64,000 bases of DNA from Sipunculus nudus (taxonomy: Eukaryota > Annelida > Sipuncula > Golfingiida > Sipunculidae). The translations under genes and the position numbers were made by a program. The notes below the pieces were generated by a model. The model was given only the letters and a program-made list of their open reading frames with translations, was not told the DNA's origin and ran no database searches. Numbering within the stretch: position 1 is the stretch's first letter; every line of letters starts with the position of its first letter. The DNA lies in NCBI GenBank assembly GCA_026874595.1, contig CM049321.1:48713297-48777296 (forward strand), given 5' to 3'. Below are positions 21,302 to 51,525 of this stretch, one piece after another.

Positions 21302-21475
21302 TTATGTACAGTTCCCACATGTGTCCAAGATCCAATCGAGGTGTTCATCGATCTGTGCGAAGCCAATTGGCTCCCCTGGTTTATCGCAGATGTCATTAAC
21401 GGTGAACGTGGACACTCCGGCGAGTACATAATTGTTATCACCCTGGTTGCACATGAGGGGGTCCCCAAGGTCGTA
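21302..21475 (-). CDS. Protease homologue exon 11: mutated Ser site and C-terminus
   Basis: Acceptor TTTATTTCAG. With the end of exon 10 it gives CKYDLGDPLMC in place of C-x-GDSGGPL-x-C: the catalytic Ser is Leu and the first Gly is Tyr. It continues YVLAGVSTF and GFAQIDEHLDWILDTC and ends TGT ACA TAA. Confidence 0.92.
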   Translation of the reverse strand, partial: YDLGDPLMCNQGDNNYVLAGVSTFTVNDICDKPGEPIGFAQIDEHLDWILDTCGNCT

Positions 21476-24400: not shown

Positions 24401-27400
24401 GGTAAGGATTTTTAATTTTGTTATAATACGACGTATTTTGTCCACTTATTCTCAGCTCGTACTCAGGTAGTGTCATCCAGGTGGGATACATCGTTCATTG
24501 ATAGTTCATTGACCCCTTCCTTACAACATTCTGCAATGTTTTCCTTTAATTCATAAGCAAACAAATTGTTGTGCTTTTAACAAATGGTTCTATTGAATTA
24601 ATCCATACCCATGCATATCCATGCGTCATTCCAGAACTGACTTATATTATGTGAAAAATACATACAATTTTGTTTTGTGTTTCGAAAGATGGCGGAGTTT
24701 TTAGATCTACAGCCATGGTAAAGTTTAACCAATAATTGTTACAGGTCATCAAAAACGTGGTTGGTAAGGTAAGTACATATCTATGCCAAATTTTATAATA
24801 CTTTGCCTCCTACAATATTTCGCCCTTAAAGTGCTGTGCATAATCAAAGTTTGATTTACTTAAAGGTGCAAATATTGACCCAGTTAGCAGTAATTTAGGA
24901 TGTAAAACTATTTTAAAACAAAGAATTACACTGTAATTACAAAGTAATTTTCAGGTAATGTTATTAACCTATAAAATCGTAAGTGATGATATTGTAATTT
25001 TGGACCTTATATGATAAACAATGTGATTTAGAATAATCTATACTTGAAAGAAAAAATATTTTGGACATATAGAACAGAATACTACTGAATTAAAATGTAG
25101 GGCCGGCTATATCTTTTTTAACACTCGCTGATAGCCTTTTCTCATGTGTCTATGCAAATTCGTAATTTTCTTTTATATGTTTTGATTTAATTACAGTATA
25201 AAGTCATTGTTTTAAATGTAAACTTCCATATACATTCAAAGAATTAACATGCAGTGCATCGTGTGTTTTTTACATTTTTTTTATTGAACCGCATGATATC
25301 GTAGGACAAGGCCTTCGGTAAATTTCGGGAATATTCCTTTCTTTGGTCAAAATTTATGAGTATGGGACACTCTTACATAATTTTACGCAATCAAATTCGT
25401 CAAGCATCGTGGCAAAATAACGGTGGCCGTATAAGTATTACTAAAGGTTTTAGGTGAGAATGGCTCATCTTACCTTGCATAGTTGTCCACCATTAGACGC
25501 TTCAGCGCAAATGACGCCACCATTTTGAACCCAGGGACGAGAAGTTGCGTTTGCACATTCTTCATCACTCAAAAGCCTGTCGATTCCATTAACGCTCAAC
25601 CAATGGGATGGATTTACTGTAAATTATAACCAGGTGTAATGATTTTTAATACTGTGCACACATTAAGCATATGCGCCATTGATAGTCGGGTTTCTATTAA
25701 AGCAGTGGCGTCAATTTTTCTCTTAAGGTGAGGGACGAATCGCATTCACCACATTATATAAATATATATTTTATTGTGTGTGTGACAAATTTATTTCAAA
25801 TAATTCACAATTAAGTACATGTATAAGGTTTTAAAAAAAATTAAGTATAATGTTTCGTGTTTAGGTGACTTCTAAACCAGGTTTAAATATAAAATATTTA
25901 AGATTTAACACGGAAGTGGAAAGAAGTATGTAATTCTAATTATTAATATATTTCTTTTTCAATATATAAATATGAATTTCTGAATAGCAGGCTAAAAAAG
26001 GGAGGAGACTATATATTCCTCTATTGACGCTCCTTTCTTTAAGCAAGTTATGAAAAATATGCTATTATCAATTAAGCGGGCGGTGGACTACTCATGCAAA
26101 TTAATGTGAGATGACCTACAGGAGATACCATATACTTATTTTTAGGCTAAAGGAGAATTTTCTGGGACCTGTCTTCATATACGAAGTTAATATTATAGTT
26201 TTGTTATGTTCCCTACTTATCGTTTGAGTATATTTGAAGGCATTCTCAATATGAGACCTAGGGATTTTCTTTCACACACAGCAAAATCATGTAAGACAGT
26301 GAATTTCGGAATGATGCATATTAAAAGCATCATAACTGAACAAAAAAAGTACAACCCGTTGCTTATAAATGCATAATTTAAATTTTTATATAGATGTTCT
26401 TCATCAAGTTGATGGCACCACTGCAGGATACATATAAAATATTTGCGCACGATAGACTGATGCCATAGAAAAACTTTACTATTAGAAATGCTTTATCATA
26501 TATTTGATTTCATACTGAGGTAATGATCCTGAATTTAGGATGTCACTTCCATATGAACCTTTATAGGAAATTATAGAAAAATATAAACTCTTAATGAAAA
26601 ATAATATCTAAAACACGGTGGACACGATGTGTCGGAACGGAGTATAAGAAATAGACTGAAACACATGAAAGAGCATATTAATATGTCATGTTTTTCATCA
26701 GTACTATACAAAAAATCATGTTCCTTACCTAAATTCTGCACTACTGGACCGAAACCAGCGTAGTAACAATTAGTGTAAGATGCCCCATCTGGATTTGGCA
26801 AACAAATCGGTCTGAGGGTATTTTTGAGTGTGAAGTTCCGATCCAATTCCAGCAGAGCAATATCATGTTTCGCCCTTATAAGAAAACAAATTTAACAATT
26901 TAATATTTTCATTATCTTAATAAAACACCCTTGCACTCCTATTTCGGTATCTTATATTTTCTTTTATTCTAATAAAACACTCCTGCACTCCCTTTCCGGT
27001 TACTTATATTTAGCCTACCCTAAATAAGCCTCCCCGTACTCCCTCTTCGGAAGTATAAACAATTTAAAATACCGAAAAATTAGAGTAGGGATTTTATTTT
27101 TAGGATGAATGATATATTAGGATAAAAGAAAATTTGTTTCCAAAAAGGGAGTGCAGGGATGTTTAAATATGATAAAAGAAAATGAAAGTAACCCCAAAAG
27201 CAGTGCAGGGATATTTTCTTTGGATAATAGATTATATAAGTTCCCGAAAAGGAAGTGCTAGGATGTTTTATAAGTTTAAGGGGAATATAAGTAACCGAAA
27301 TTTCAAGTGCAAGGATGATATATTCGGATAAAAGAAAATATGTTACCGAAAAGGGTGTGCAGGGATGTTTAAAAAGGGTAAAATAAAATTAAAATTACCA

Positions 27401-30400
27401 AAAAAAATAAAATGCAGGGATGTTTTATTAGGATAAAAGAATATTAAAATTACCGAAATGCTAGTGAAGGGATGCTTTATTAGGATAAAAGAAAATATAA
27501 CTTACTTTAAAATGAGTGCAGGGATGTTATAATAGGAGAAAAACAATATAAATTTACCGAAAAGGGATTGCAGGGGTGTTATATTAGAATAAGACTAAAT
27601 ATACATTACCGCGGTGAAAATGTAGGGATCTTAAATTAGGTTGGGACTAAACATAGATGGTCGAACAAAAGGTGTAGGGATGTTTTATAAGGACGAAAGA
27701 AAAATATGTTACCGAAAAGGGAGTGCTGGGATGTTTGTTAGGATTAAAGAAAATATAAATTCCCGGAAAGGGACTGCAGTATTGTTATATTAGGATAAAA
27801 GAAAATATAAGTTATAGAAAAAGGATTGCAGGGATTTTATACTAGGGTAAAAGAAATATACGTTACGAAGAGGGATTGTATGGATGGTTCCTTTGGAAGA
27901 TAAAAAAAATAAATAACTTAAAAAAAGAGTGCAGGAATGTTTTGTCAGGGGAAAAAAATAGAAGTTACCCATAAGGACGGGCAGGGGTGTTTTATTAGGA
28001 TACAAGAAAATAGTAGGTACCAAAAAGGGAGAGAGGGATGTTTTGTTTAGGATAAAGGAAAATCAAAATTTATCCAAAACGGAGTGCAGGGGTGTTTTAT
28101 TTAGGATTAAAGAAAATATAAATTCCCAACAATGGAGTGCAGTGATTCTATATCTAGAATAAGACTAAATATACATTACCGCGGTGAAAATGTAGGGATC
28201 TTAAATTCGGTTGGGACTAAACATAGATGGTCGAACAAAAGGTGTAGGGATGTTTTATAAGGACGAAAGAAAAATATGTTACCGAAAAGGGAGTGCTGGG
28301 ATGTTTGTTAGGATTAAAGAAAATATAAATTCCCGGAAAGGGACTGCAGTATTGTTATATTAGGATAAAAGAAAATATAAGTTATAGAAAAAGGATTGCA
28401 GGGATTTTATACTAGGGTAAAAGAAATATACGTTACGAAGAGGGATTGTATGGATGGTTCCTTTGGAAGATAAAAAAAATAAATAACTTAAAAAAAGAGT
28501 GCAGGAATGTTTTGTCAGGGGAAAAAAATAGAAGTTACCCATAAGGACGGGCAGGGGTGTTTTATTAGGATACAAGAAAATAGTAGGTACCAAAAAGGGC
28601 GAGAGGGATGTTTTGTTTAGGATAAAGGAAAATCAAAATTTATCCATAACGGAGTGCAGGGGTGTTTTATTTAGGATTAAAGAAAATATAAATTCCCAAC
28701 AATGGAGTGCAGTGATTCTATATCTAGAATAAGACTAAATATACATTACCGCGGTGAAAATGTAGGGATCTTAAATTCGGTTGGGACTAAACATAGATGG
28801 TCGAACAAAAGGTGTAGGGATGTTTTATAAGGACGAAAGAAAAATATGTTACCGAAAAGGGAGTGCTGGGATGTTTGTTAGGATTAAAGAAAATATAAAT
28901 TCCCGGAAAGGGACTGCAGTATTGTTATATTAGGATAAAAGAAAATATAAGTTATAGAAAAAGGATTGCAGGGATTTTATACTAGGGTAAAAGAAATATA
29001 CGTTACGAAGAGGGATTGTATGGATGGTTCCTTTGGAAGATAAAAAAAATAAATAACTTAAAAAAAGAGTGCAGGAATGTTTTGTCAGGGGAAAAAAATA
29101 GAAGTTACCCATAAGGACGGGCAGGGGTGTTTTATTAGGATACAAGAAAATAGTAGGTACCAAAAAGGGCGAGAGGGATGTTTTGTTTAGGATAAAGGAA
29201 AATCAAAATTTATCCAAAACGGAGTGCAGGGGTGTTTTATTTAGGATTAAAGAAAATATAAATTCCCAACAATGGAGTGCAGTGATTCTATATCTAGAAT
29301 AAGACTAAATATACATTACCGCGGTGAAAATGTAGGGATCTTAAATTCGGTTGGGACTAAACATAGATGGTCGAACAAAAGGTGTAGGGATGTTTTATAA
29401 GGACGAAAGAAAAATATGTTACCGAAAAGGGAGTGCTTGGATGTTTGTTAGGATTAAAGAAAATATAAATTCCCGGAAAGGGACTGCAGTATTGTTATAT
29501 TAGGATAAAAGAAAATATAAGTAATCGAAAAGGGATTGCAAGGATGTTATATTAGGATAAAAGAAAATATAAGTTACCGAAAAAGGAGTGTAGGAATGTT
29601 ATATTAGGATAAAATAAACCTTACATTATTGAAAGAGAGCTAGAGATGTTATAATAGGAAAATATTAATATAAATTATCGAATATGAGTGTAGCTATATT
29701 TTATTAGGATAAAAGAAACCATAAAGTGTCAAAATTGGGGTGTAGTGATGTTATAAAGGATAAGAGAAAATATAAATTATCCACAATGGAGTAGGAATGA
29801 ATGATAAATAATTGAAAAGGCAGCAGAAGACGTTATATGAGGAAAAGATAAATATCAATTATCGAAACATGAGTGTAGGGATGTTGTATTCATATAAGAG
29901 AAAACATTCATTATCCAAAAAGCAGTGCAGGGATGTACAAGGTAAGAGAAAACATAATTTCATTGAAAAGGGAGTGTAGGAATGTTATATTACGATAAGA
30001 TGAAATGTAATTATCATCTTAATGTTACTTTTCCGAGGTGTAATTTTTTTTTTAAGGCGGCATGACATTTGAAGCAATGATGTTTGAAACAATCATGCTA
30101 ATTTTGATTTTCGTCTTTCAAGAAGATAAAATAAAACAATTTTGGTACGATTTCCTATGTTATGTAGTGCTTTTACATGTTAAGCAAAAAACCCCGTTAT
30201 TTTCATGCTTTTACATAATCATATGACATTTAATTCAAACATACAAAGAAGTCAAAAATAAAATACCGCCCGCCCGCAGAGATTTCTGAAAAAAAGTGCC
30301 TGAGACCCATACCTTTTTATTTTTTTGCCTAACTTCTACCAATAACATTCTCGAGGAACAAAGGTATAAAGCGGGATGTTATACGATGACCTACCCGTTA

Positions 30401-33400
30401 GACATATCCACGTAGCTCGGGTTGAAATAAATTTGCGTAATATTGGCCCGTTGACGAGCACCTGGTTCAAAAGTATGACCCGCGAAAACACTTGCTGAGC
30501 TGAGGTTCGTCTCCAATCTAAACACAATAATTAGTATAAATTATATATCATACTTCCATTATCTATAATTAATCATATGTCATTAACTGACTGGTTCGTA
30601 TTCATGCCCATTGGTCTGAAAGTGCCAATAGCGACCCTTAAGGCTGCCCGAAGGCCAATAAGGAGTTGAGTCCCAACAAGTGACTTCATACCATTTTTAT
30701 GAAACAACTATTAATTCACCCAACTGTATACAGACACTCTATGTCCACACAGAACACAAGCAAAAATCTTAAAAATCGCACATGCAAAAAAATCGTACAC
30801 CCGCAACTTCACATGCGACCTGGTGTAAGTTATTTTTAAAATGGCTACCAAGATGGCCGCAAAGACGCTTAAATTGCCATAAATCATTTTGCAATCTTGC
30901 AAAAAAAAACAGGTTTCACAAATCAAACAATTTTGTTATCAACTTCTAGATTTTTGGGGTTAAAATCCATTGAAACCTATGAAAACATCTCTACGTCCTC
31001 ATCAAAATGGTGAATCCGAATTGGCGATCAAAATAACCACCAAGTCCCTAAGAATGGTTATTTATTACTGTTTTTTTATTTGTATCTTGGTAATATTATG
31101 CGTCTCGTTTAATAGTGGATAATAGTGTCCACGTTAGATATGCGCACTCGGGGCCACGATTTTGCGGACCAATTATTTATATAAGTAATTCATATAATAA
31201 TCGATGTAGTCTGTGTAGGTCATTATATCTGAGATGAGATCGAGAACATGTGGATATTAAAACTTTTTTTTTTTTCGAGTAAAAAGTTTATTTTAAAATT
31301 ACAAATATATAAGCATTCTGCAGCATTTAACTTGCTTCAGAATCAGAGCACATGAAATTCCATGACCTTCAACATAATTTGCACTAGGCAGAATTGGACT
31401 CACAAGAGGTGGTTATTGGATGTAGGCATAGAAATTCTTTCCCCCACCATACACTGGGACTTCTGAAAACACCAGCAGCTTAGGTAAAAATTTAAAGAGG
31501 ACGGTAATATGGTTGCTTTATATATGTCGGACAAGAATTGTTTCAAGGTAAATTACATGAACATATATATGATTATTTGTGGTCATTATAATAAGTAATA
31601 TTTTGTATTCATGTTTATTGCATCCTCGTCAGGCAATGCCTGTATCTGAGTTCACGTCTACTTTTCTACAGAATCGGCTAGCACTGGGCTGTGAAAATTC
31701 CAAATGAAATAAATAATAAACATGACGTATCACAAAACGCTGATCACATTATATTCCTTATACAGTAAAACAAAAGCACCGCCAGGGTTCATAACACCCC
31801 CACCATATGCATTGTGTAATTTGACATCATCAAATAATTCAGAAGAGAAACTAAATTGATAAATATTTATAATAGATTTTTTAGAAATCTATCATACTTT
31901 TGTAGTTCATCATTGCGTCACGAAATTTGGGTAACCTATGAACATCATTGATTTTGCAGGGAATCAAACTTTTGTGGGATATATTGGTTAATAATTTTGT
32001 TGAGTTTCATCCAAATTAATGTATTATATTCCAGGTAAGATAACACGGCAAACTAAAAAGAATTCCGTTGACCTCTGGCCTCATTACATATTCGTGGAGA
32101 ACTGAAAGCCGGGGAAAATATTTTGGTCAGTAGTTGTAATCAGTTTCGAGAATATCCATCAGGGCGACACTAAGAGTTATCGGACGAACGGAGGGTACAA
32201 TATGATATGATAAGGAGAGCAAATATAAAGACCTAGTAACCTCAACAACGTGTGTTCCTAGGGTTTTCCTAAGGTATCAACGAATAGAAAATTTGCACGT
32301 AAGGAGCAGGGGCCTCCACCAAGGCGGCACATTACCGCCATAAGTCATAGTCAAAAATGTTTGATAAAAACACGAGATAAAAATCGCTGAACGATATAGC
32401 ATACTGACACTGAGCACCACCAAGTTGCAAAATCTGAACAAGGTTGGCTATTACCCAATATTGAATTGTTAGAAATGCAGCATATCCTTGAAACAGTAAT
32501 GGACCCAGATGGTGGTCCGAATCTACCAAAAAATCAATCTTTTGTTTGTTTTCCAAAATTAATTTTGTTCCTTGTATCATTTCCAAGCGACCTAGAAAAA
32601 ATCATCAAAATCCGTCAATAATTCTTTGAGTGACGTTGCTAACAGACCTACAGACAAACAAAGAAAATATAACTCCTGCGTCGGTGAACATTAGCTTTGC
32701 TGATCTAGAAGGGGTTCTTATATCCTCGTTCACAGGTAACATGCTCGCCTTACTACCTCAATGTCATTTTATATAATCATAAATCTTTGGCCTAGTGTAT
32801 TTCTATGACATTGTGCAGCGTTGTGTCATGTCTGGATATGTTCAGACAACTATGCGTAAAACTTGAAGTTTTTCGGTAATGTATGAATGTCTTACAGTTT
32901 GCCACACGTGGCGCTGGTGATAACCCATTTAGGATGTATAATGGCCCCGGCACATTCAGTCTGTGTTAGCCGAATCCCTACCTGTGAAAGAAAATATTCC
33001 ATGGTTATGTCATGACAAACATTTCAAAAACATTAAATTCTTAGTCATAAAGTTATATTTCCTATGTATATTTCAAAGGATTTATCAATCTTTATTCACC
33101 ATATCTATGTGTATATCGTTTTCGTACTAACTTTGTCTAAAATTTGTATTGTCTCTGAATTCAAACATTTTTGTCAAATTTTTCATTTCTCTAGCGGAGG
33201 GAGCGCAAACAACGGTCTGCCAGTCTACGTGTGACCCGGTCTGTTGGATGCCGCTCCTGGTGATTGAAATATTACATTTCAGCTGCTTGAGCCAAAATTA
33301 GTGTAACACTTGCGCACCGCTGGCTTAAATAGTCGCGCAGACTCATTAAGACAGGCATCCAACACACGGGGTCACAACAGGTGCTAAATAAGCAGTGAAG

Positions 33401-36400: not shown

Positions 36401-36877
36401 TTAGACCTTTTTTGTATGTTTTAATAAAAATGTCATATGATCAGGGAAAGCATGAAAATAATATTTTTTTTCTTTTGCTAAAGGGGTAATAGCACTACAT
36501 AACAAAAGAAATCGTATCAAAATTGTATTATTTTACCTTCTTAAAAGACGAAAATCAAAATAAAATTGTTTGATGCGGGGGGGGGGGGGGGGGTAAAATT
36601 GACGCAGGCGGGGTCTGAGAAACAAAATCTTATTTTTTTTCTTACTGCACTTTCTAACTTTTTGATGATCTTGGAATTGTAAAAAAAACAAGAACAGTTG
36701 TAATAAACACCAACCTACCACCCAGGGAATATGTTCTCGATTGAAAACATACTTTCCACCACTTATAAAGTTGGTACCACCTCCCATTAATCCACAACCT
36801 ACAGTCAACAAAAGAAAAACCTCTGCAATATTGAATGTTATGCATTAATGAACCCACAATAATTATATCATTCTCAC

Positions 36878-36923: not shown

Positions 36924-39900
36924 GAACCCACAATTAATTTACCCTCTCTCCAATATATATGTGTGTGTGTCATAGAAAACATTGAAATCCGAGCGGATTT
37001 CAAATCTGAACAAATGAGGTTGCAATTGCATCCATGGCGAGTTTAAAATTTTCCTGAGCGGGATTGAAACGATGGTCTGATGGTATTTCATTATATAATA
37101 AGCATTGTAAATTACGTATGAGGAAGTTTATAGTAAGGCACTTACAAAGCTACTATAGGTATGGTATATGGCAATTTTACATGGAATATTTCTGATACCT
37201 TGCCAGCTTTATATAGAGTAACTATAATTATGATATATAGGGTAGTTTTAGCAATATTTTTTATTTATTTGATGTCTTACACATCAGGATAAATTGCATG
37301 CTTCATTTTACCCATGCCTCCATGATTCGGTTAATATCTTTAGTCTCTTGTCTACTGCCCGTGTTGCAATTGTGTATATAGTTGTATTCGAGAACGAAAT
37401 GCAAATGCTCCTTCGATCTCACAGTATTATTGTTACGTCTGTCATGTATATACAGTTGCTTGTGCATCAATTAAAGCAAATCAAACATAAAAGCATTTTA
37501 TGATCCCTATTGACATTTTGCATCCGTCTAACATGACATGATCATAGAATTTACATATACGTAATACATTTATTTATTGACTTTTAGGTGAATTAAAAAT
37601 ATAACCCTAAACTTAATTGAATTTTCAATTATTAAATTTAAAAAATGTTTACTTGAAATTACGTAAGAAAATATTCAAAACTACAAAAACATGGCAGTAG
37701 TGTTGTACCAGAGTCTGTTTTGTGAAAAGTGAGAGTTAGACTATGATTACGAGAGCTGACGGACGGAGAGGTCCAGGGACGTCCACATGGGGGCGTGAGG
37801 CATAAATATTTCATTTTTTTCAGAAAATCATTTTAAATATTGAAATTACGAATAATTATAAATTAATTTGAAATATGCATTTACATGAAATTTTGAATAA
37901 TAATAATGATAACAATCATACACATTTTTAATATATAAATTTATGTATATATGTAAATAGATAATTTGCTGTGACCGAGTTGCTGCTTGAAAACAGGGTT
38001 CAGACCATTCTAGAGCGTTCACACGACACTTTAGCAAAGAGGATAACAAGATTAGCATTCTAAACGATTTGAAACCACCGCCTGAGCATGAATCAAATCG
38101 TTTTGGCCAAAAAGGATGAAAAAAGCTTTGGATTGTCGCGTTAACACTCAAATGCGCATCGAACGGCCTGAAACTGGTTTGCATTTGCCGTGCGAACAAT
38201 GGTCAAATATACCCATTGAGTCAGGTTTGTCTCGGCAGTTGCATATCTTTTGGTTTCGTTTTGTAGCCTTTGTGATAATATTCTTGTGTTTTTGGCCTTG
38301 GGTGTATACTTTAACTGGAGAAATTGATAATTCAGTACTGTTTTGTTTATTTAAGGATGCCTAACCCCCCTCCGCTGAATCGTCAATCCAACCCTTAAAG
38401 ATAAATCGATGCCAATGGGGAGAGTGTAGCCACAGAAATTTACTGCTCAAATACAAAGAATTCGAGATAAATAGTTAGGCAATCAAGGTGAGCATGTGGG
38501 ATAGAAGACATCACTCACCATAACAATCGTCGGGGGAACCTTCGTCTCGTGGACCGGCTCCTGCTTTATACCCTTCAAATGCAGTCACTAGTTCAGTCAT
38601 GTTTTTTCCCTGATATTTCTTAAAATTCTGAAAGATAAAGAAAAACTTAAGTTCCCTCTAGCTGGGTTTGTACATTCGGCTGATTTGTTTTAAACGTAGT
38701 TTAGAATCTCTAATATTTAGGGAGTATCAATATTTCTCTGATTTCATTAGCCTGTTCATTCTTCTTGTTTATAAATATATGGCCAACCGGCAAAGCAACT
38801 TGAAAAAAAATGGATATCTAAGTCTTTTCTCTTAATAATGCTGGCCAAACAGAACATTAAAAGAACATATTTGTAAAATTGCATTTTCAAACTGATTTTT
38901 ACACCATGCTCCTAGTTGCTATAGTTACCTTGTCCGTGCATTTCATTATTTGATAAACCTGGGCAATAGTATTTATATTACACCAATTTGTAAATATGAT
39001 TCACAAGGATATAAATCCCTTTACTTTTGTTCATATTCTGAATCTTAAAAGATGTCACATATAACAATTCCGGACAAAATTAGATTTACTGCCTTCGCTA
39101 GGGGGTATGCGTTCATTGTACTGAGTGTGTGTTTGTTCACAAAAAGTCACGCACTCATTTATTAAATCCAATGAACATTCAGGGCATCTAGGGAATGGAC
39201 CATAGAAGAATCAATAAGATTTTGGTGTGGTTCGGCTTACGATCTAGGAAGGACTTTCAGAAGTAATCGCAAATACAGTCACATATGCATGATTGAACAT
39301 GGGAATATTGGCAGAATAAATCAATGATTGTAAAGAAACTTTAACACCAATAAAACGGAGAATATGGGATCAATAAAGTAATGAAAACACGGGGTGCGGA
39401 ATACCCAACGTAAAGGATCGCCAGGCGGAGGCCTGCTTTCCTGAAAATGCATTTTAATTCTTGAATGTCTTCAACTGGAAAACATTTCCTTGTCTGTGCA
39501 GCCCGACTGCTTAATATATAACTCTCGGACGAATTATGGTGTTTATCTATAATCAAAAATCACTCATATAATTAAGGCTACACGTTCGTTTTCTTAACGT
39601 CCGCTTATCAAACTTTTTCTAAGTGTTTTGTAAAGCACAGAATGCAGTTCTGTCTGAACTGATATTGAACCACAGATATATTCTTTGCAAATATTGTTTC
39701 ATTTGAATCTGTGACCATGAAAACTTGAGTCTAGATTCGATGTTCGATCAGTTATCATGATTAATTCTGGAGATATGGAATATGGTAGATTTTTCATCAA
39801 TGGCGACCCTAATTTGCATAAATAAATTTAAATGCGAATTGTATCGTAAATATTGTATTACTTGAATCATTAACCACGAAAACCTATGTCTAGACATCAA

Positions 39901-42900
39901 ATATAGTAGAATTTTCATCAATTTTGGCCCTCATTTGCATATTGAAATGTAATATACGAAATTAATTGTCGTTAATATTGTTTAATTAACATCTTTGGCC
40001 GTGAAAATCTATGTCTAGACACAAAGTTCGACCAGGTATCTTGTTTAGTTCTGAAAACATATAAAAGGTAGCCTTTTCATCAGTGGCAGTCCTAAACTGC
40101 ATATTTAAATATTAAAAAAAAACCCAAATAAATCGTTGTTATTAATGTGTCATTTGATTTTTTTTTTTTGCCATGGACACCTAGACACAGTGTTGAACTA
40201 GTTCTCATGGTTGGTACTGGAGATATCGAAAAAAATCGAATAACTGTAACAAAAAATGCCGATGGTCGTCGTCAGGACAGCCAATCTTAAAACATCAAAA
40301 GACCCCTTCCATCACAAATCCATCACAAAATTGTACTATAGACAATTCTTATATTCGCTATGGAATATATAAAGGCCACAACTTGTCTTTACATGGTATT
40401 TTTTTAATGTTGTATTTTCAAAAACTATAAGTGAAACAGCTTGTTGCAGCAACGCACAAAACAAGTTTATGCCGGCATTGATAAACACATGGATAAACGG
40501 AAGAAAGACTAAGCATAAAACGACTGTACCAACCTTTCCTAATGAAGGAGATTTTAGCCCTGAGGTAAAACACCCGGCGTCAGCCCAGAGTCCGAACAAA
40601 CACTCCGCCGTGTACGGACCATTTTCACCCGAGCTTTCACAACCTGTAATTCAGAGAGAAAGTTAATAAAAAATTTGCGCAGACCTCCGCCAAGGTAGCT
40701 CATTATCTCCATATGGCATTTTCAGAGATGCAGTATTTTTTTCTTTTTTTTTTTTAAATGCTGGATTCAGATGCACATTGAATGCTAGTACACTCAGGAG
40801 ATACATGTGCTCCCACCTGATATGAGATCAGTAAAAAAGGCAGCTCATTACTCCCATATGACATCGTCAGAAATATAACATTTAAGCAACTGTTTCTTGA
40901 ATCATTGACGAGCTTTCCTGAAAATTTCATCAAAATCCGCCCATAGCACTATAAGAACTGTAGCTAACAGACAGAGAGACAAACAGACAAAACAACGCGA
41001 GCATAAACATAAACCCTGCTTGGTAGAAGTGATAAATATTAGTTTGGTCGAGGCTCCAATCTCTCTCAGAGTAAAATCTACATATGTTAATGTTTTCAAA
41101 GACCGTGATTCCTCGACCCGACCTGGTGTCTATTCCAGGAACACTTAAGGCCAGCAAGTTTTTGAACTAAAATCACAACTGTCAATCAAATCCAACGATA
41201 AAAATGTAACCAATACACTCATTCGGGGGGCGTCAATAATAGGGGGATGAGGGGTATATATCCCCCTATTTTTAACCAGGGGGATGGTCAATGTAATCAT
41301 GACCCCCCCCTCCCCTTCCCCTACTATTCAGAGAGTACTATTTATATATTGCGAATGAAATATATTAATAATATAATTATAGACTTTGGTTCCATATATG
41401 TGTTTTCTGTGTTATATTATTGTATATACTCTAAATATAAAACTTATGTGTTTAATTATATATATATATATATATATATTTTTGAAATTTGTCATACAGA
41501 TGGTATAAAGGTAGGTGTGTGTGTGTTATCTATCCCCCCCCCCCCCCCGGAACTAAAAGTAACGCCACTGCACTATTTGCACGTCTTCAAAACAAAACAA
41601 ACGGGGCAGAATCGTTGGCAAGATTCTCGATGCCTTTCCGGCAATACTAAACGTGTGGAACATGTGTATGTGAGAACGGTCAATTGCTTTATTCATTATT
41701 CATGAAACAGACGCGAGAGAGGGTCGCGGAATCAAGGTTTTGGAAAGCAAAGCCAAAACATCGGTAGCATAAAGATGTATGACTTTTAATCGGCGGGTAG
41801 TGGGGGGAAAACCGTTTTAGTGCCCTGGAAGCAAGATCCAGTTTCTCCTTGGAAACCAGAACTTAGTTCACTGTGTCTTATTTTGTGTGCCACGGGGGAA
41901 ACATAATACGATCACTGTGAATATATCACAAATCATGACAGTTGGATCAGAACGTATGGGTTGATTGCTCATCCAGAACCCGCAGGTGCGAGAGACACCG
42001 GGCCTGGGTGTCACCAGGATTAAAAAAAATAATATAACAGAAAGCGAGTACTACTGGCCTGTCACGTGGTCCGACACTGGAATGGAACTCTGCATATGTT
42101 CATACAAAGATTAAGAATAAGATAAGAGAGCATAAAAAATGGAGGCGGTCATCTCCACCAAAAGAAAAATCTTTTTAAAAAAAAATCCTGCTAGGTCAGT
42201 GTAATGCAAACCATTCAAATAACGGATTACATCCAATTTTTTTCAAGTATTTTTATAATCCACCTCAATTATTTACTCACCTCCAGTTATGTTGAAACAC
42301 ATTGTCATGTATTCTGTCCCGGCATCAGGCCCAGTCTTCACGGTCCATCCTCTCATGGCCCTCTTCCTGACCTTGCTCATTTCCTTTTTCATATCATGTA
42401 TCGTCATATTACGCCATTCCTCTGTCTTGGCCTATCAAATGATATTTGTTTTATTTTCTTTACTTCATTAATTTAGGCTTTTCTGCAGTATTGGGCAATA
42501 AAAACGTTTGTGAAATAGCTTTTCACTTGAGGGCATTTAAAAATATTTTGTACAAACGCAATTTAACATATAGTGTGGCAGTAGAAAATGGGGACCCGTT
42601 GGGTCCTGTTGCAGCGGATTGGGTGCCCAGAACTCCAGAATCTTCAGACCGGGAGAGAACTAGACTCATTGTTCTCAATTGAGTCACAGAAGGCGCCTCT
42701 TTCTCCGCATTTTTCAGTGTGGTCTGAGGTGTGCTGGAAAAATACTGGCAGGTATATGCAATAAAGCTTTATTTTCAATGATAATATTTAGCAAAAATCA
42801 GCAGTATTGGGCAATAAAAACGTTTGTGAAATAGCTTTTCACTTGAGGGCATTTAAAAATATTTTGTACAAACGCAATTTAACATATAGTGTGACAGTAG

Positions 42901-45590
42901 AAAATGGGGACCCGTTGGGTCCTGTTGCAGCGGATTGGGTGCCCAGAACTCCAGAATCTTCAGACCGGGAGAGAACTAGACTCATTGTTCTCAATTGAGT
43001 CACAGAAGGCGCCTCTTTCTCCGCATTTTTCAGTGTGGTCTGAGGTGTGCTGGAAAAATATGGGCAGGTATATGCAATAAAGCTTTATTTTCAATGATAA
43101 TATTTAGCAAAAATCATGCATATGACTGACCTATATGTTGTTTCAAATAAAGTATTTATACCTTGGATGACCCATGACACATACATTGGATAAATCACAC
43201 GAGGTAAAGCATAGATTAGGCCTAGACCTTTTCTAACTTCATCAAAATAGCGATCGCAACGGATTTTGTAACTCATTAAGAAAGCACAGGAGATTGTGAG
43301 ATCGAATTTCAGCCGAAGGGGTGAAATTTTTCACGGCCTGCCGTCCACCAGGGTGAGCGCTCTGCAGGCTTAATGGGAAGGTCGTGCCCAGTGGCGCAGT
43401 TCATCTCAAACAAGAGTGCGAATTTGGGGGCATACCACCCAGCAATGAAAATATTTAACACTCAGGGCCCGCAGGTGCGTAATAACTGGGCCTAGTTAAA
43501 CCAGGATATGAAATGAGAGCTTATTACTGCTCTGTCAAGTAGTCCGAAACAGAGGTGGAATTCAGCTGATGTTTATAATTAGTTGAGGTAACATTTTAAA
43601 AATTAAGGGAGCTACCTCATACAAAAATATAAAAAAAAAAAAAACAACTATGGGATCGGTATTGGAAAGGGTATTGACATAACTGGAATTAAGAAATTAA
43701 GTGAGTTGTTAGGATTTGTTTTAGATTGTGTAGCTGTGATTATTTTAAAGATACAAAAACCTTTGCTGCAGTATGTGTATTTTCCCAGGTTGTAAGTCGA
43801 TTGTGGATGAATACAAAGTTTTCAAACAAAACTATCCCGCAACACAGCCTTGATATATCCAGTTAAACCTGTTTCATTCGCTGTTGTGGGTGAGTGAAGG
43901 GGTGAGTGAGTGAGTGGGTAAGTCAGTCATTGATTCAGTCAGTCAGTTAGCGAGTTGGTCAATGAGTCTGTCAGTGAGTCAGTCAGTGACTGTTTACCAC
44001 AACTAGAGTTCCGATTTTACGAACGTCTGAAAATTATGTGTAAGTTTTGGGCCAATGGTGGTGCTATTTGCAAGTTTATTCACCCCTCTTTACAGTACGA
44101 AGCAAACGATTTTATAATGAAATATTTGTAGATACTTACATATTTTAAGGAGAATACACTATAATTTATTTATATTTAAAGTACCTGTTATGTGAATAGG
44201 CCCCTTAAGACTGCGAAGAGAGCGGGTACCTAAGAATTTTGACGGACTTACAAAACAGGCGTATCTGCGAGAAAATGCTGCCGCTATCAGTTAAGGTTGG
44301 AATGTATTCTCCAATAAATAATGACGTTAATCACACACTAATGAATCAGCTTCATTTATGAAAAAAATAGAATAATAAATGGTTTCATTGATATTGGGCA
44401 TGTAACCGCAACAGGCCGCCTCCCTCTGGGGCCTATCCTGTCACACTCCTGTAACGTTACAGTAGGGTTACACTTTGTATGTAATTTGTAACTGCTTCCT
44501 GTGGACTGTAAACTGGTAGCTGTCTGTTGTTAACTCTAAGTACACAGCTGTCAGTTTTATAGGGACATATTCAGAAACAATATTATGCATATTCTTTCGC
44601 ACTATCAGTTCAGTTTGATGCAGCCCAGCACACAGTCTCAATACGTCGCATACGGCCGTTTAGTACCTGACAGGAGGTCCGATTGTGAGCCGGAACACGC
44701 GGTGTTTCAGCCAGCGGAAACATGTATTACATTTATTGAGCCAAGTCAGTCAGAGCAGCTTCATATTGACAGGAAGTTGTGGCTCCGCGATGCACACGGT
44801 CCCACACGCTGTGTTTATGTTTACATCTGTATTCGCGCCCAGTTCACTGTTTCTAACGTCCGTTTATAGGAGTAAGCAAACGGGTGCAAAGCAGTATTTG
44901 GGTAGGTACAGATGTATTTTAAAGGTAAGAATCTATTTTTCATGTTAATTTAATATGCTTAATAGGTGATTGTGCCCCTTTAAGTAATGTGAGATCACAC
45001 ATAATGCCAGTGATGTTGTCGAGTTCACAGTGATCGAGTCCTACTGCAAGTCTAAGTCCAGGCCACACGAGTCCAAGTCCGAATCCTTGAGATTCGAGTC
45101 CAAGCCCACCTTCTTCGAATCCTAGTCATTTGGATACCGAGTCCGAGTCCAATACACATATCCTTAAAAATCATTGCAAAATGGAAATTTCAGATTATCA
45201 TGTACATTTTTCCGTTAGTTGACACAGGCTTGAACTAAAATGGTGAATTATATTCATAGCTCCCTGTGCTGAGCAAAGATTGGTCCGAGTAGCGACGTCA
45301 ATTTAGGGGGTATATATAACCCCCCCCACACACACACACACACACACACACTGTTTTGGCAAGGGGGGGATGATCAAAGGAATCATCCCAACACTATTCA
45401 GAGAATAATTAGAAAAAATTGTATATTGTGAATGAAATATATCAAAAAATAGAATTTTAGACTTTGGTTCCATATATGAGTTAACTATGAAATATAATAT
45501 ACCAAATGGTTTAGAATTACCTTTTTTCCGTAAAACCTTGTACTTGTATATGTATATGTATATGTATTTGGAATGCGTCACACAGATAAT

Positions 45591-45643: not shown

Positions 45644-48600
45644 TTATCCTGCGATTCATCCCCTCACCAATGATGATAAATTAACCCCCACTGAGTCCGA
45701 GTTCAGGATCCTTGAGCCCAAATAAAATTCCTCTCTAAAACAGTGGACTCGCATCACTGCATAATACCAAATCACAATTAAAACTTAACTTCTCGTAAGT
45801 ATCACATGACCGTCCCAGATCTCCACCTATCCAACCCCCACCCCGACTATCCACTGTTGGGTATTCCAACTGATCTTAGAACATCTTATCTATCTCTAAA
45901 AGAGTTAGTGTTCTGTAAAACAAATGATGCTTTGTCATTCTTTCTCTAGGTTTCACATGTGCACAGCTGAGAATTATGAGGTCACATTTTCGTATATATA
46001 CCAGGATATCATTAAAAACCATGAAAGATATCACTACCAAACTTGCCACTGCACTTCTACATACTTTTAAAAGACACATGTCTGTAAAAGTTTAAATTTC
46101 TAGGTTTTAAATGTTTATCTTGAAATGTAGCCTTAAAGTGCAGAGTCGCCCATCTCGTATGGTTCTGCATGAGTGAATTCGAATGTTATGCCATAGGCTT
46201 GTTAGGAACCGGATTGAGTAATGACATTTTGATATATTTATCTGTTCCCCTATATGAATAAAAAAATCTACATTTAAATTTTGAAAACAAACTTTTTGAC
46301 CCCTGTGAAGTTGAAAATTAAGCCAAGGTTACTGAAAGTGAATAAAATTAATCGGATCGTGGTATTGAAGGTACATTAAATATTGATAATATCTTAGAAA
46401 AAAAAGGAGCAAATGATAAGATTAAGAAGAATAGTGCCAAAAAAGAGACAATTATCTCCACCCATCCATATTATTCCATAACAATAAAGGCATAAAGAGA
46501 CAATGTTTTAAACGACAATGATACTTTAGGAAAAGTAGTGACATACTTGCTCATGAGACGATGTTCTATTCGCAGTTACGTCAATTTATCTCAAAGGTTG
46601 GGTGGGTGGGGAGTGACTCGCAGAGAAATTAAAGTTCCGAAAAATTATACATACATATATTTATATTTAATATATATATATATAAGGTTTGAAAATATCA
46701 GCTTTGTCTCCAGTAAAAGTTTATGCTAAACCATGTCTATATATACAGGTATATAATATTTCATGGAACTAAAGTCTAAAATTATAATTATTCTTATATT
46801 TCATTCCCAATATATAAATATTACCCTCTGAATATCAGGGGGGATGATTACATAGAACCCACCCCCCTTTGTTAAACGTGGTAGGATATAAACTACCCCC
46901 CCCCCCCACACACACACACACACATACACTCACTACCCTGTATTGACGCCATTGGTTGTAGGGATATCTTATGTAGAAGATGAAAGTTTACCCCGAAAGG
47001 TGGCGCTGCTGTACCGTCTGCACTACATCCGGTATATAACCACTTATTCAACAGGCACTTGTCACTGTGAGGTGGATCGGAGCAGGCTTCTGTAAAAAAG
47101 TACGGGAAACTTAAATCTAGATATTCACCTGTCCTATTTGTAAAATCCATATACATATGTGTACAACTATGCATATTAATGAACTCTAGGAAATTCATGT
47201 TCAGAAAGCCCCTTAATTATAATGTCTCTGTGGTTGCTTAGCTTGTTAATCTAAATGTTGTTAGAAAACACGGCACATTGGCTAGTATTGTCAATCAGAA
47301 ATACTACGCAACACTTTGTGGCTGGTTGCAAATTTCCTTCACATGATAGGTTACAAGATGCAAACTGACGTTACACCAGACATGTTTGCGTCATTTTGGC
47401 TCCCGTACACATGTTATAAACACATTGATATACAAAATTCGAACTGTCAACATATTATGAACCGTGGGATCGGCGATTTCTCACCTATTACTATGAAATG
47501 TTCAAGGAAAAAAGCCCCATTTACACGCGTATTTCTGGAGCGCTCTACATCGTTTAGCGCCCGCCAAGTCCCCCAAACGCGCCAGATTTTGATGATTTTC
47601 GGTCTAGATTGCGCTACATGTTGACCACCGGTTTAGGTCGGTTCTACATTCTAGCGCGTGCCAACCAGCGTCTGGCGCGGCTTACATTTGTACTTCGAAC
47701 GTGTGTAAACAGTGGAGCGCGCTATCTATATAGCGCACTCTAGCAAGACACGGCTGTCATGTGACTGGGATTTACCCATGCGCGCAAGGGGGAATCCAAT
47801 CTAGACCACGCTAGATTGCAGTATTTATCTGCGTGTAAACGCAATGCAGATTCTAGGCCAGGCAAAGTGCAATGTGACAGGGTAGCGCTCTCTGCATGGT
47901 CACTTGGTCCAGTACAGTGCGAACGCAAGATAACATGTAGCCCGCTCAACATTAATTTGGACCGGTCTAGCTCCTGCCACAATTTTCTCGTGTTAATGGG
48001 GCTATTGTCTTTATTTAACTGGCGTACTGACCTGCTATCAAACCATTTCTAAAACTGTCCAACGTCCCGTCTGTATGCATGTTACCTATTAATGTTTGAA
48101 TTGTAAAATCACGGATAGTCTCCATACATCTTACATTCTGCGACTATTCACTTTTATGCCGTTTTAGGTGTTCACACGCGCCAATGTAGGGTTCTCCCCA
48201 CAGATAAAATAAAAAAAAGCCATTTAAGTTTTAAATCACCGAATAGCCGAAAGGTCTAAATGAAACTGGAATGTATGTTAATACATAGCAAAAACACATA
48301 TTGCCAGTCTATTAGTTAAAAGCGATCGTCAATTAACTATACAAACGTTTTGGGTGATATCAATAAAAGTTCCCTCAATGTTAAGCCCTTAGCACCCCAT
48401 TGTGACCTGACCAAGTGCCAATCCATACGTCTGTATCATTCAGGACCTAAAGAACATGTGAGGTTTTTCCTCCCGGCCCAAGGGCAGTCTCATTTAACAT
48501 AGGGGTAGTCTGTTAATGGTTGAACCCAATTAGAGTGAGGAAGGGTGGTAAGTAGGTCTATCTAACAACCTGTCTGACAATGAGAAAAGGCAGACTGCAC

Positions 48601-50577: not shown

Positions 50578-51525
50578 CATGCTACCATGCATGCAGGGGG
50601 GGGGGACACTCCCAAGGACATCTGTCAAAGAACCTTACAGATTTAACGAGAAATTGTTGGGCAAGGCCTTAAGGGTGTTTACAGGGCTGCTGGTAAGTGT
50701 TAACCTTGAAGGTATCATGATGGACACTACAATAACAATAAATATATATCTTTTACAACATGTACCATACAAACTTTACTATATGTTCAATTTAGCTTAC
50801 GTGGCCTAAATACACATTGCAGTATATAATTCTTTAAACGGTTATTTTTTACATGATTTTGTACAAATCTACTTGTACCTGAAATAACCGAAGGAATATG
50901 GACAGACCTTGACATTACGTTTTGGTAAATTTTACCTTCCCCTCACTATTACACAACCATATGTTTGGCCCGCAGAAACCTGCATTAAAAATCATGTAGC
51001 CCGCCCCGTATATTACAGCTTTTAGCCCGCACCCGCTCCGCCCCATAGTTATTTTTTTACCAACCCCACAACATCAAGAAAAAGTCAACCAAGGGGGGGG
51101 GGGGGGGGCGCGGGGCGGGGCGGGTTCTGGCCCGCGTAGGCCTTTAGCCCGTGTGCCTGCGGGATGATGACAGCTGCTAATTAAAAGCTATTTAGTAAAA
51201 ATATGATAAGCAAAACAAATGTTGCTGTACGAATTCAGAGACACATTTGATATGTCAGATCAGTGTAAAGAGTCCAAAAAGCAAACAAACTGCAGATTTA
51301 TTCTAAAATGCTTGCTTGTTATATTAGGCCGTCCCTTCCATTTGCATCTTCCAAGATCATTGTTAAAAAATGAAAAATATTTAAAAAATTAAGACAAGTA
51401 TCTAAACAATTTTCGGCACATCTATCAATAGAAATCAATGGTTTTCGACACTCACTTTTATTTGGTGCTCCCTCACTCACCCCCAGGAAAGCAGACAGGA
51501 CGCCAAAGACTATAACGGCATTCAT
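21302..51525 (-). CDS. Secreted S1 serine protease homologue (pseudoprotease), 11 exons, 429 aa
   Basis: Exons from the 5' end: 51,456-51,525; 46,992-47,089; 42,281-42,431; 40,534-40,643; 38,519-38,627; 36,719-36,798; 32,896-32,981; 30,395-30,517; 26,729-26,874; 25,474-25,616; 21,302-21,475. They sum to 1,290 nt and every intron phase agrees. Residues 1-20 are a signal peptide. Residues 25-106 and 108-179 are two copies of a four-cysteine module. Residues 181-429 are an S1 domain: CGLMGGG, FISGG, PWVVGI, ECAGAIIHPKWVITSATC, HDIALLELD, RPICLPN, CKYDLGDPLMC, YVLAGVSTF, GFAQIDEHLDWI. The family norms TAAHC and GDSGGPL are altered: His to Thr and Ser to Leu; Asp stays. Activation IVGG is ISGG with Phe before it. 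At least seven N-glycosylation sequons are present. A non-enzymatic secreted role (binding or regulation) is inferred from the family. The acceptor of exon 3 is the least certain junction. Confidence 0.9.
21970..23930. repeat. Duplicate block E, split by a LINE
   Basis: 21,970-22,250 and 23,640-23,930 match block D (16,330-16,870) in order (TGACGTC-type stretches, ATTGGGAA, GCGATTAGGGTCACATA). The LINE at 22,274-23,610 sits between the halves. It lies in intron 10 of the protease homologue. Confidence 0.5.
22274..23610 (+). mobile_element. 5'-truncated LINE with target-site duplication (L1/Tx1-like)
   Basis: Flanked by the 16-bp direct repeat AAGGTTTGAAATTATT at 22,258-22,273 and 23,611-23,626, with an A-rich end after AATAAACTGTG. 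The coding part is the C-terminal end of a reverse transcriptase ORF: RIIFRFIWKKRYNNK, GGLKVIDVKVMQQAL, KICWSIM, then WLNKCPSRRLTSADWY, LLHWKILHNIFPTNVLLY, KCNFCDETDYIEHFFYSC (a C-C-H-C type end) and KHFWLKVES. It lacks endonuclease and catalytic core. A frame change near 22,610, one near 22,850, and a stop near 22,920 break the frame. It lies in intron 10, sense opposite to the host gene. Confidence 0.85.
24060..24465 (+). mobile_element. Possible piggyBac-like fragment
   Basis: GCGTACTTGTACGTCC and GTATGAGTACGTCC subrepeats at 24,087-24,150 resemble piggyBac terminal regions. 24,252-24,405 reads MKRQQNPRRAAFTVEQVLDA then DSDTG and ends at a GTAAGG donor, like the N-terminus of piggyBac-derived transposases (FTVEEAL...DSD). 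No catalytic part is seen. Weak call, in intron 10. Confidence 0.35.
25474..25616 (-). CDS. Protease homologue exon 10
   Basis: Acceptor ATTTACAG, donor AAG|GTAAGA. Codes LLSDEECANATSRPW, GGVICAEASNGGQLCK. These match the LS-EEC and ICA...G...C stretches that precede the catalytic Ser in S1 proteins. Confidence 0.88.
26729..26874 (-). CDS. Protease homologue exon 9: catalytic Asp region
   Basis: Acceptor TTTTCTTATAAG, donor G|GTAAGG. Codes AKHDIALLELDRNFTLKNTL, RPICLPNPDG and CYYAGFGPV. The Asp of DIALL is kept, as are the Pro-Ile-Cys-Leu-Pro and Ala-Gly-Phe-Gly stretches (AGFG replaces the usual GWG). Confidence 0.9.
26925..30010 (-). repeat. Minisatellite of ~52-bp units with 570-bp higher-order repeat
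   Basis: The whole stretch is built of ~52-bp units (GGGATGTTTTATTAGGATAA, AAGAAAATATAAGTTACCGA, AAAGGGAGTGCA on the plus strand). Within it, 570-bp blocks begin at about 27,591, 28,161, 28,731 and 29,301 and are nearly identical (3.4 copies, about 11 units each), while outer units are more diverged. It fills most of intron 8 of the protease homologue. The repeated 77-codon frames inside it are by-products. Confidence 0.92.
30030..30315 (-). mobile_element. MITE family 1, copy 1
   Basis: Inverted relative of 36,345-36,626. It shares ATTTTGATTTTCGTCTTTCA, ATCATATGACATTT, CCGCCCGCCCGCAGAGATTT, and ends AGTGCCTGAGACCCATACC. No coding capacity. It lies about 80 bp from exon 8. Confidence 0.65.
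30395..30517 (-). CDS. Protease homologue exon 8
   Basis: Acceptor TGTGTTTAG, donor GG|GTAGGT. Codes LETNLSSASVFAGHTFEPGA and RQRANITQIYFNPSY, the usual strand pair before the Asp motif, with sequons NLS and NIT. Confidence 0.85.
32290..32715. repeat. Dispersed repeat with CTCCNCCAAGG and AACAGAC ends, copy 1
   Basis: Shares with 40,674-41,045 an end CCTCC(A/G)CCAAGG, CAAAATCCG(T/C)C, and a GCTAACAGAC-rich end with CAGAC repeats. Known in many invertebrate genomes as an anonymous interspersed repeat. Non-coding, in intron 7. Confidence 0.55.
32896..32981 (-). CDS. Protease homologue exon 7: mutated His site
   Basis: Acceptor CTTTCACAG, donor CT|GTAAGA. Codes VGIRLTQTECAGAIIHPKWV then ITSATCGK. 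The cysteine pair around the His loop is kept, but the catalytic His of TAAHC is Thr (TSATC). Confidence 0.9.
33228..33438. repeat. Inverted repeat pair plus adjacent hairpin
   Basis: TGACCC..TGTTGGATGCC at about 33,230-33,252 and its inverted match GGCATCCAACA...GGGGTCACA at 33,355-33,377 enclose about 100 bp. The neighbouring 33,412-33,438 folds as GTGGCTCTGT/ACGGAGCCAC with a 7-nt loop. Fold-back element or MITE, unclassified. Confidence 0.5.
33595..33665. mobile_element. Partial copy of the 1,816-1,981 MITE
   Basis: ATATCAGACCTCGCTTAGA, TTATCGAGGACCCGCTGGTG and TTCTAGGTTACACTAG match the right half of the element at 1,816-1,981 (ATATCACACCTCGCTTCGA, TTATCGAGGTCCCTTTGGTG). Confidence 0.5.
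33890..35600 (+). repeat. ~37-bp minisatellite with 110-bp higher-order array
   Basis: The base unit is about 37 bp (CTCCCTAATTCTATGTATGG, TTCCACAGCTA). From about 34,535 to 35,380 it is organised as eight near-identical 110-bp blocks marked by TTCTGCGGCGGCTCCCTTAT at 34,561, 34,671, 34,781, 34,891, 35,001, 35,111, 35,221 and 35,331. The flanks are single diverged units. It lies in intron 6. Confidence 0.92.
36345..36626 (+). mobile_element. MITE family 1, copy 2
   Basis: Left end ATATGGTTCTCAGGCACTTT, then GCGGGCGGGCGG, TCATATGATCAGG, GAAAATCAAAATAAAATTGT, a G16-18 run, and right end GCAGGCGGGGTCTGAGAA. The terminal inverted repeat is GGTTCTCAGGCAC / G-(T)GCCTGAGAAC across the family. In intron 6, about 90 bp from exon 6. 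Confidence 0.7.
36719..36798 (-). CDS. Protease homologue exon 6: S1 N-terminus
   Basis: Acceptor TGACTGTAG, donor GTG|GTAGGT. Codes CGLMGGGTNFISGGKYVF and EHIPWV. ISGG sits where active S1 enzymes have IVGG after an Arg or Lys; here Phe precedes it, so normal zymogen cleavage is not expected. Confidence 0.85.
36881..36970. repeat. (TA)n tract within a short direct repeat
   Basis: About 40 bp of (TA)n, with TATGAACCCACAAT(A)AATT... on its right similar to 36,848-36,870 on its left, then a (GT)n run. Confidence 0.7.
36971..38518. other. Intron 5 body and flank without recognisable elements
   Basis: AT-rich, no exon with splice signals, no clear transposon. Short open frames here look random. 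Confidence 0.45.
38519..38627 (-). CDS. Protease homologue exon 5: module 2, second half
   Basis: Acceptor ATCTTTCAG, donor G|GTGAGT. Codes KNMTELVTAFEGYKAGAGP ... DDCYG, parallel to exon 3 (NMT, GP, final Cys plus aromatic). Confidence 0.88.
39620..40290. repeat. Diverged ~150-bp tandem repeat in intron 4
   Basis: Four weak units marked by GTCTAGA(T/C) (about 39,729, 39,890, 40,013, 40,180), each preceded by ...CATG/CGTGAAAA and followed by TCATCA and TGCATA stretches. Old array; no coding sense. Confidence 0.5.
40534..40643 (-). CDS. Protease homologue exon 4: module 2, first half
   Basis: Acceptor AATTACAG, donor AAG|GTTGGT. Codes C-x12-CLFGLWADAGC then GLKSPSLGK, matching exon 2 in Cys, Trp, Gly-Cys and Pro-x-Gly positions. 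Confidence 0.88.
40674..41045. repeat. Dispersed repeat with CTCCNCCAAGG and AACAGAC ends, copy 2
   Basis: Same family and orientation as 32,290-32,715: CAGACCTCCGCCAAGG at the left, CATCAAAATCCGCCCATAGC, then GCTAACAGACAGAGAGACAA. In intron 3. Confidence 0.55.
41222..41571 (+). mobile_element. GGCGTCAATA element, copy 1 (MITE-like)
   Basis: Starts GGGGGGCGTCAATAATAG and ends AAAAGTAACGCCACTG, so the termini are inverted. Inside are a CCCCC run, ACTATTCAGAGAGTA, GCGAATGAAATATATTA, TAGACTTTGGTTCCATATAT and a (TA)n tract. Related copies are at 45,290-45,665, 46,620-46,952 and 56,540-57,010. Confidence 0.6.
41940..42105 (+). mobile_element. SINE-like repeat, copy 1
   Basis: Shares CCCGCAGGTGCG, GGGCCTGG, ACCAGGAT, TACT(A)CTG and GTCACGTGGTCCGA...TGGAA with 43,290-43,580. 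Short, non-coding. In intron 3. Confidence 0.5.
42281..42431 (-). CDS. Protease homologue exon 3: module 1, second half
   Basis: Codes EEWRNMTIHDMKKEM ... GWTVKTGPDAGTEYMTMCFNITG, donor G|GTGAGT (phase 1). Contains sequons NMT and NIT. The acceptor is placed at TTTGATAG|GCC; CCAAG|ACA six bases downstream would also keep the frame and drop two residues. Confidence 0.8.
42485..43116 (+). repeat. 316-bp near-exact tandem duplication
   Basis: 42,485-42,800 and 42,801-43,116 differ at only a few positions (for example GTGGCAG versus GTGACAG). Each carries GGGGACCCGTTGGGTCCTG and an AATAAAGC box near its end. The array begins 54 bp upstream of the exon 3 acceptor of the protease homologue (intron 2). 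Confidence 0.92.
43285..43580 (+). mobile_element. SINE-like repeat, copy 2
   Basis: A box-B-like GATCGAATTTCAGCC lies near 43,302, then GGTGAGCGCTCTGCAGG, CCCGCAGGTGCG, CTGGGCCTAGTTAAACCAGG and ATATGAAATGAGAG. The last two match, in inverse, the copies at 53,140-53,345 and 58,825-59,035. Likely tRNA-derived. Confidence 0.55.
45008..45759. mobile_element. Non-autonomous hAT-like element with 8-bp target duplication
   Basis: Left end CAGTGATGTTGTCGAGTTCA, right end TGGACTCGCATCACTG, which are inverted repeats. The flanks are CATAATGC (45,000-45,007) and CATAATAC (45,760-45,767), 7 of 8 identical, the hAT hallmark length. Subterminal GAGTCC/AAGTCC motifs repeat many times at 45,030-45,160. There is no transposase. 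The GGCGTCAATA element at 45,290-45,665 is nested inside. In intron 2. Confidence 0.75.
45290..45665 (+). mobile_element. GGCGTCAATA element, copy 2, nested in hAT-like element
   Basis: CGACGTCAATTTAGGGGG, C-run with (CA)n, GGCAAGGGGGG, ACTATTCAGAGAATA, GTGAATGAAATATATCA, TAGACTTTGGTTCCATATAT and a 40-bp (TA)n tract, in the order of copy 1. Confidence 0.6.
46620..46952 (-). mobile_element. GGCGTCAATA element, copy 3 (inverted)
   Basis: Reverse orientation: ATGGAACTAAAGTCTAAAAT, ATATTTCATTCCCAATATAT, CTGAATATCAGGGGGGATGA, C-run with (CA)n and TATTGACGCCATTGG. It ends about 40 bp from exon 2 of the protease homologue. Confidence 0.55.
46992..47089 (-). CDS. Protease homologue exon 2: module 1, first half
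   Basis: Acceptor TTTTTTACAG and donor GGG|GTAAAC (phase 1 to 0). Codes C-x8-CLLNKWLYTGC with a Pro-Gly end, the same pattern as exon 4. Confidence 0.88.
47513..48003. mobile_element. MITE with AGCCCCATTTACACG ends
   Basis: AGCCCCATTTACACG (47,513-47,527) and CGTGTTAATGGGGCT (47,989-48,003) are inverted repeats with one mismatch. The interior is GC-richer than its surroundings, with many TAGCGC/GCGCTA and CTAGATT palindromes. No coding sequence. In intron 1. Confidence 0.7.
48004..49590. other. Intron 1 stretch without recognisable elements
   Basis: No exon or transposon end was identified; a TAATTA/AATTAC-rich patch at 49,130-49,290 resembles terminal parts of small AT-rich MITEs but has no clear borders. 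Confidence 0.4.
49600..51165. mobile_element. Probable hAT-type non-autonomous element with CCCGCACCCGC subrepeats
   Basis: CCGCACCCGCCCCGCA-type subrepeats cluster at both ends (49,625-49,775 and 50,965-51,160) around an AT-rich, non-coding centre with a (TA)n tract at 50,522-50,574. GC-rich subterminal arrays of this kind occur in hAT derivatives. Exact ends and target duplication were not found. Confidence 0.45.
50522..50574. repeat. (TA)n microsatellite
   Basis: About 50 bp of TA repeat. Confidence 0.95.
51456..51525 (-). CDS. Protease homologue exon 1: signal peptide
   Basis: Codes MNAVIVFGVLSAFLGVSEGA then PNK, a typical signal peptide with cleavage near residues 19-20. The donor is A|GTGAGT (phase 1). 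A TTTCAG|GTTCC acceptor ends at 51,536, ten bases before the ATG, so an untranslated first exon probably lies further upstream. Confidence 0.85.

Follow-up and report, generated by a model that had tools for sequence, protein, structure and literature searches.

The locus analysed here, on the minus strand of a 64 kb window (the whole stretch of DNA that was analysed, 64,000 nucleotides), raises the question of whether a gene for an S1 serine protease homologue with a dismantled cutting site is decaying or is maintained, and, if maintained, what its product does. A preliminary description had claimed an intact 11-exon gene. A codon score and an approximate splice matrix served to find minus-strand exons; those of the S1 part were joined by hand first, and the front part followed. 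The rebuilt gene runs from 51525 to 21302 in 11 exons and 429 codons. The claim was borne out in that the frame contains 0 internal stops and all ten introns have a GT donor, an AG acceptor and consistent phases. The exons, in the order of transcription, are as follows.

Exon 1, 51456..51525, minus strand: start codon and signal-peptide-like MNAVIVFGVLSAFLGVSEGAPNK, ending in phase 1 at donor GTGAGT.
Exon 2, 46992..47089, minus strand: first half of module 1 (C...CLxxWxxxGC...G...P).
Exon 3, 42281..42431, minus strand: second half of module 1, with the fourth Cys and the sequon NMT; acceptor score 2.8.
Exon 4, 40534..40643, minus strand: first half of module 2, with intron phases as in exon 2.
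Exon 5, 38519..38627, minus strand: second half of module 2; like exon 3, it has an NMT sequon.
Exon 6, 36719..36798, minus strand: Cys1-like residue and activation region CGLMGGGTNF|ISGG...PWV, placed by eye.
Exon 7, 32896..32981, minus strand: TSATC, with Thr231 (ACG) at the His57 position.
Exon 8, 30395..30517, minus strand: S1 domain residues preceding Asp102.
Exon 9, 26729..26874, minus strand: Asp102 kept as Asp280 (GAT), in KHDIALL.
Exon 10, 25474..25616, minus strand: Cys168, Cys182, Cys191 and specificity-pocket position 189.
Exon 11, 21302..21475, minus strand: YDLGDPL, C-terminal CGNC and stop codon.

The motifs on which the reading of the active site depends lie at 32918 (TSATC), at 26864 (DIALL) and from 21475 (YDLGDPL). 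Base composition sets the exons apart from their surroundings: introns, which range from 1112 to 4560 bases, are 35.8% GC and the pooled exons 47.5%, and the GC fraction of every exon (11/11) is 0.41-0.53 versus 0.29-0.36 in its 250-base flanks. The chance product for intronic DNA being open at these lengths and phases is 4e-12, a figure that ignores the selection of the exons for openness. On the approximate generic splice matrix, three acceptors score low (2.8 for exon 3, 3.2 for exon 8 and 3.7 for exon 10). In the 1 kb downstream of the stop codon there are five AATAAA or ATTAAA signals, among which the first AATAAA occurs at 21229. Of 26 pattern matches to the whole protein in a scan of prokaryotic contigs, 0 were relatives by tblastn. 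The locus is apparently an intact animal gene.

At the 5' end, exon 1 accounts for the 17-residue stretches of highest hydrophobicity in the protein, and by hydropathy the first 20 or so residues resemble a signal peptide. Between 60000 and 47150, exon 1 alone among ATG-to-phase-1-donor stretches of 40-159 bases passed a filter that required a hydrophobic core over 2.0 and a donor score of at least 5, the filter having been set with knowledge of the exon. Two GTGAGT donors are present, and the exon 1 donor was assigned to 51455 because it is the only one that joins exon 2 directly in phase. An exon 1 end at 51481 joined directly to exon 2 was rejected because exon 2 would then have to begin at 47087, where no AG precedes it. 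Variants with 12 exons, in which exon 1 ends at 51481 and is followed by an extra phase 0-to-1 exon, are phase-compatible and may occur; candidates for the extra exon, for example 50026-49981 or 49700-49571, were omitted for low or repetitive content. Among the matches listed for LWxxxxC is one at 58432, within a short open stretch.

Several repeats and other features were found within and around the gene. Tandem arrays occupy parts of intron 8 (26903-29618, 52/103-base units), intron 6 (34463-35371, 110-base units, 8.3 copies, 95% matches) and intron 2 (42485-43116, a 316-base unit present twice, 99%), and a further array lies upstream of the gene (52005-52410, 54-base units, 7.5 copies). Two inverted-repeat pairs (30090-30325/36332-36572; 84% and 91% complementary) are located in introns 8 and 6, where they flank exons 7 and 8, and are perhaps two copies of one transposon. 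Intron 10 contains likely non-LTR retrotransposon remains (22235-23485, plus strand), with a Pfam zf-RVT match at 22922-23482 (E=1.1e-07) and no Pfam match at 22235-22612. Fragments of reverse transcriptase (Pfam RVT_1) were also detected at 57375-57635 (plus strand, E=5.3e-05, below cut-off) and 60266-60499 (minus strand, E=3e-11). A C-type lectin-like frame at 9427-9786 (minus strand) has a Pfam Lectin_C match below cut-off (E=0.012), and two more such frames at 10549-10836 and 1273-1548 (both minus strand), mutually similar by eye, have no Pfam match; these frames suggest lectin genes downstream of the pseudoprotease gene. A tRNA-Ser (GGA) was called at 6527-6598 (plus strand) by ARAGORN, and as a tRNA by Rfam, with an (AG)n run 78 bases on.

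Exons 6-11 encode the S1 domain, which matches the Pfam Trypsin family (PF00089) with E=1.3e-27 over profile positions 7-220 of 220, placing it in the S1A family, and gives a weaker match to DUF1986 (26.3 bits, cut-off 25.2). Distinct PDB sequences matching at E<=0.001 numbered 468, the best being TMPRSS13 (E=1.6e-19); the best 60 of the 468 were listed and five, all active S1 enzymes, were aligned, and the residue replacements reported below were read from those five. The protein has 20 cysteines in total, distributed among the front modules (8), the standard S1 pairs (10) and the CGNC tail (2), along with seven N-glycosylation sequons, a count that leaves out an extra NCT at the very end of the protein. 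Cysteines are present for all five standard S1 disulfides (181/300, 216/232, 312/381, 345/361 and 371/402). Nine of them were placed by alignment to active S1 enzymes and Cys181, the Cys1-like residue, by eye, and we assumed that they pair as is standard for the family. The S1 fold is probably retained as a scaffold.

The alignments agree with what had been described for the catalytic residues. The position of His57 is occupied by Thr231 (ACG), such that the AAHC motif reads SATC, and that of Ser195 by Leu375 (CTT), with YDLGDPL in place of GDSGGPL. Asp102 is retained as Asp280, and the DIA around it is intact. The same five alignments place Tyr373 at the oxyanion-hole Gly193 and Asp377 at Gly197; at position 189 four of them show Gln, and the one against TMPRSS13 has a gap. 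Neither the catalytic triad of an active peptidase (read here as Thr231, Asp280 and Leu375) nor its oxyanion-hole glycine was found. Getting from either His codon to the Thr codon ACG takes three base changes, and from any Ser codon to the Leu codon CTT at least two, so that neither Thr231 nor Leu375 can be put down to an error in a single base. With Gly193 and Gly197 replaced as well and the cysteines of the five disulfides kept, the earlier designation as a pseudoprotease is well supported.

The activation region reads NF|ISGG, with Phe and neither Lys nor Arg before Ile16. It was assigned by eye against what we take to be the standard motif, as the alignments start later, at HIPWV. In active zymogens, the residue before Ile16 is Arg or Lys. 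From the replacements in the active site, we infer that the protein is unable to cleave peptides.

Exons 7 and 11, which carry the His57 and Ser195 positions, are separate and could in principle be swapped for alternative exons bearing HC and GDSGG motifs, in which case the gene would also make an active protease. However, no match to [TS][AS][AGS]HC, GD[SA]G or D[SA]GG[PS] was found in six frames across the 64 kb window, in a search that motifs split by introns escape, and we regard this alternative as extremely unlikely.

A more serious concern is that the gene is a young pseudogene, derived from an active S1 gene whose constraint lapsed so lately that a stop or frameshift is yet to come. 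Neutral drift was simulated on the coding sequence with 500 runs per level and an assumed 0.1 indels per substitution. With indels, 49% of runs at 0.005 substitutions per site kept the frame whole, as did 6% (30/500) at 0.02 and 0/500 at each of 0.05, 0.1, 0.2 and 0.3. Scored by stops alone, which needs no indel assumption, the frame stayed open in 80% of runs at 0.005, 63% at 0.01, 41% at 0.02, 10% at 0.05 and 1.4% at 0.1 substitutions per site. The three low-scoring acceptors speak for recent loss of constraint, and the stops-alone survival at 0.01 and 0.05 leaves room for it. Against it, several active-site positions have been altered, His57 by a three-base and Ser195 by at least a two-base codon change, yet all remaining codons are open and the cysteines of all five disulfides are kept; the survival of the frame with indels, 6% at 0.02 and none at 0.05, points the same way. 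With several codons of the active site altered, two of them at two or three bases, in a frame that is still intact, unconstrained decay is unlikely, and a recent loss of constraint is improbable, though conceivable. The claim that the gene is under selection thus gains support of an indirect kind, from a frame which neutral drift should break in simulation.

The part of the protein that precedes the S1 domain consists of two copies of a four-cysteine module, at residues 25-106 and 107-180. Both share the core CLxxWxxxGCxxxGxxxPxxG, which begins CLLNKW in copy 1 and CLFGLW in copy 2. Local alignment of one copy against the other scored 64, whereas 20000 shuffles gave a mean of 24.9, a standard deviation of 4.5 and no score above 57, which demonstrates the duplication. 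The copies are 26% identical over the full alignment. The NMT sequon found in both is aligned in one alignment and two columns apart in the other. Each module is encoded by two exons with entry in phase 1, a split in phase 0 and exit in phase 1, and these matching phase 1-0-1 introns fit duplication of an exon pair. No family for the modules was found in Pfam or NCBIfam, with no Pfam match of any kind, including a clip domain, over residues 1-180 at E up to 10, and comparison with PDB sequences gave chance-level matches alone (E 1.1 and 0.46). As the modules have no annotated relative in these three sources, no ligand is suggested for them. The combination of front modules with a dead S1 domain was likewise not found in the mollusc and lophotrochozoan literature, as covered by titles and abstract openings among the matches listed. 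Any novelty of the protein is confined at most to the duplicated front modules.

A misjoining of two neighbouring genes, one for a short secreted protein (exons 1-5) and the other for an S1 homologue (exons 6-11), would be in keeping with the lack of a known Pfam or NCBIfam domain in the front part. However, the exon 5/exon 6 junction is in phase 1 on both sides with splice scores of 10.0 and 8.1, and exon 6 itself holds the Cys that would link a propeptide to the S1 domain. Two separate genes are therefore improbable, and we treat the modules and the S1 domain as parts of one protein.

Taken as a whole, the evidence makes it probable that the gene encodes a secreted, disulfide-rich S1A non-peptidase homologue that acts by binding, with the S1 fold as the scaffold; our confidence is lower for any single partner. 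Binding rather than cutting is probable because the S1 cutting site has been dismantled in a protein that otherwise has the build of digestive and blood proteases. The signal peptide would direct secretion of a protein composed of two tandem four-cysteine modules and an S1A non-peptidase domain. Most likely the protein would bind an active S1 protease, or the inhibitor of one, as cofactor or decoy, or would work in recognition in body fluid; specificity for a partner or surface would come from the front modules. A chymotrypsin-like cut could, speculatively, still switch the shape of the protein, which is conceivable given that Ile16 and Asp194 are seemingly kept and that Phe stands before Ile16. 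The non-enzymatic role proposed in the preliminary description stands as regards proteolysis, with a putative function in binding.

A non-catalytic structural or storage protein, for instance of a matrix or egg fluid, is a possible though less favoured alternative to a protease regulator. Apparent secretion, seven sequons and 20 cysteines would all suit such a protein, but on inspection the sequence is non-repetitive except for the two front modules. Within the preferred reading of a secreted binding protein, we tentatively suggest that this gene might be the founder of an unnamed animal family that unites duplicated CLxxWxxxGC modules with a permanently inactive S1 domain from which the trypsin-type activation site would be missing too; its product would act as a binder, either constitutively or after a chymotrypsin-like cut has switched it. 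Were the gene expressed and conserved, it would add a pseudoprotease of the S1 type whose front module is unclassified, and it could teach what such a scaffold binds when it has lost catalysis as well as the usual zymogen activation. The active-site losses themselves are ordinary, and as things stand the gene is one further case of a frequent evolutionary event.

The closest active relatives by PDB match are TMPRSS13, enteropeptidase and plasma kallikrein (E 1.6e-19 to 2e-17), S1A enzymes that have the cysteine pattern in common with the protein described here. The five aligned active S1A chains retain His57, Ser195 and Gly193, all of which are replaced here. At the activation site, the three enzymes named carry a basic residue. 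Among vertebrate S1 non-peptidases, haptoglobin, HGF, protein Z and azurocidin use the S1 fold as a binding scaffold after loss of the triad, with front domains that differ from those found here. Insect SPHs such as mosquito CLIPA28 likewise have a secreted S1A domain from which triad residues have been lost, some of them with cysteine-rich front modules; in contrast to these, the present protein has no clip or other Pfam front domain and no link to melanization. S1 homologues that lack the triad are common in animals. In a study of the beetle Tenebrio, the triad is not conserved in 125 of 269 S1A sequences; His57 is missing from 83 of these 125 SPHs and Leu occupies position 195 in 10. A signal peptide is present in most of them, and the usual processing site is not identifiable in some. 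Mosquito clip-domain S1 homologues are reported to be non-catalytic and yet required for melanization, and to need proteolytic cleavage in order to act. The missing basic activation residue, as read by eye, counts against an analogy with such cleavage-dependent homologues. The mosquito proteins indicate that dead S1 domains can serve as cofactors.
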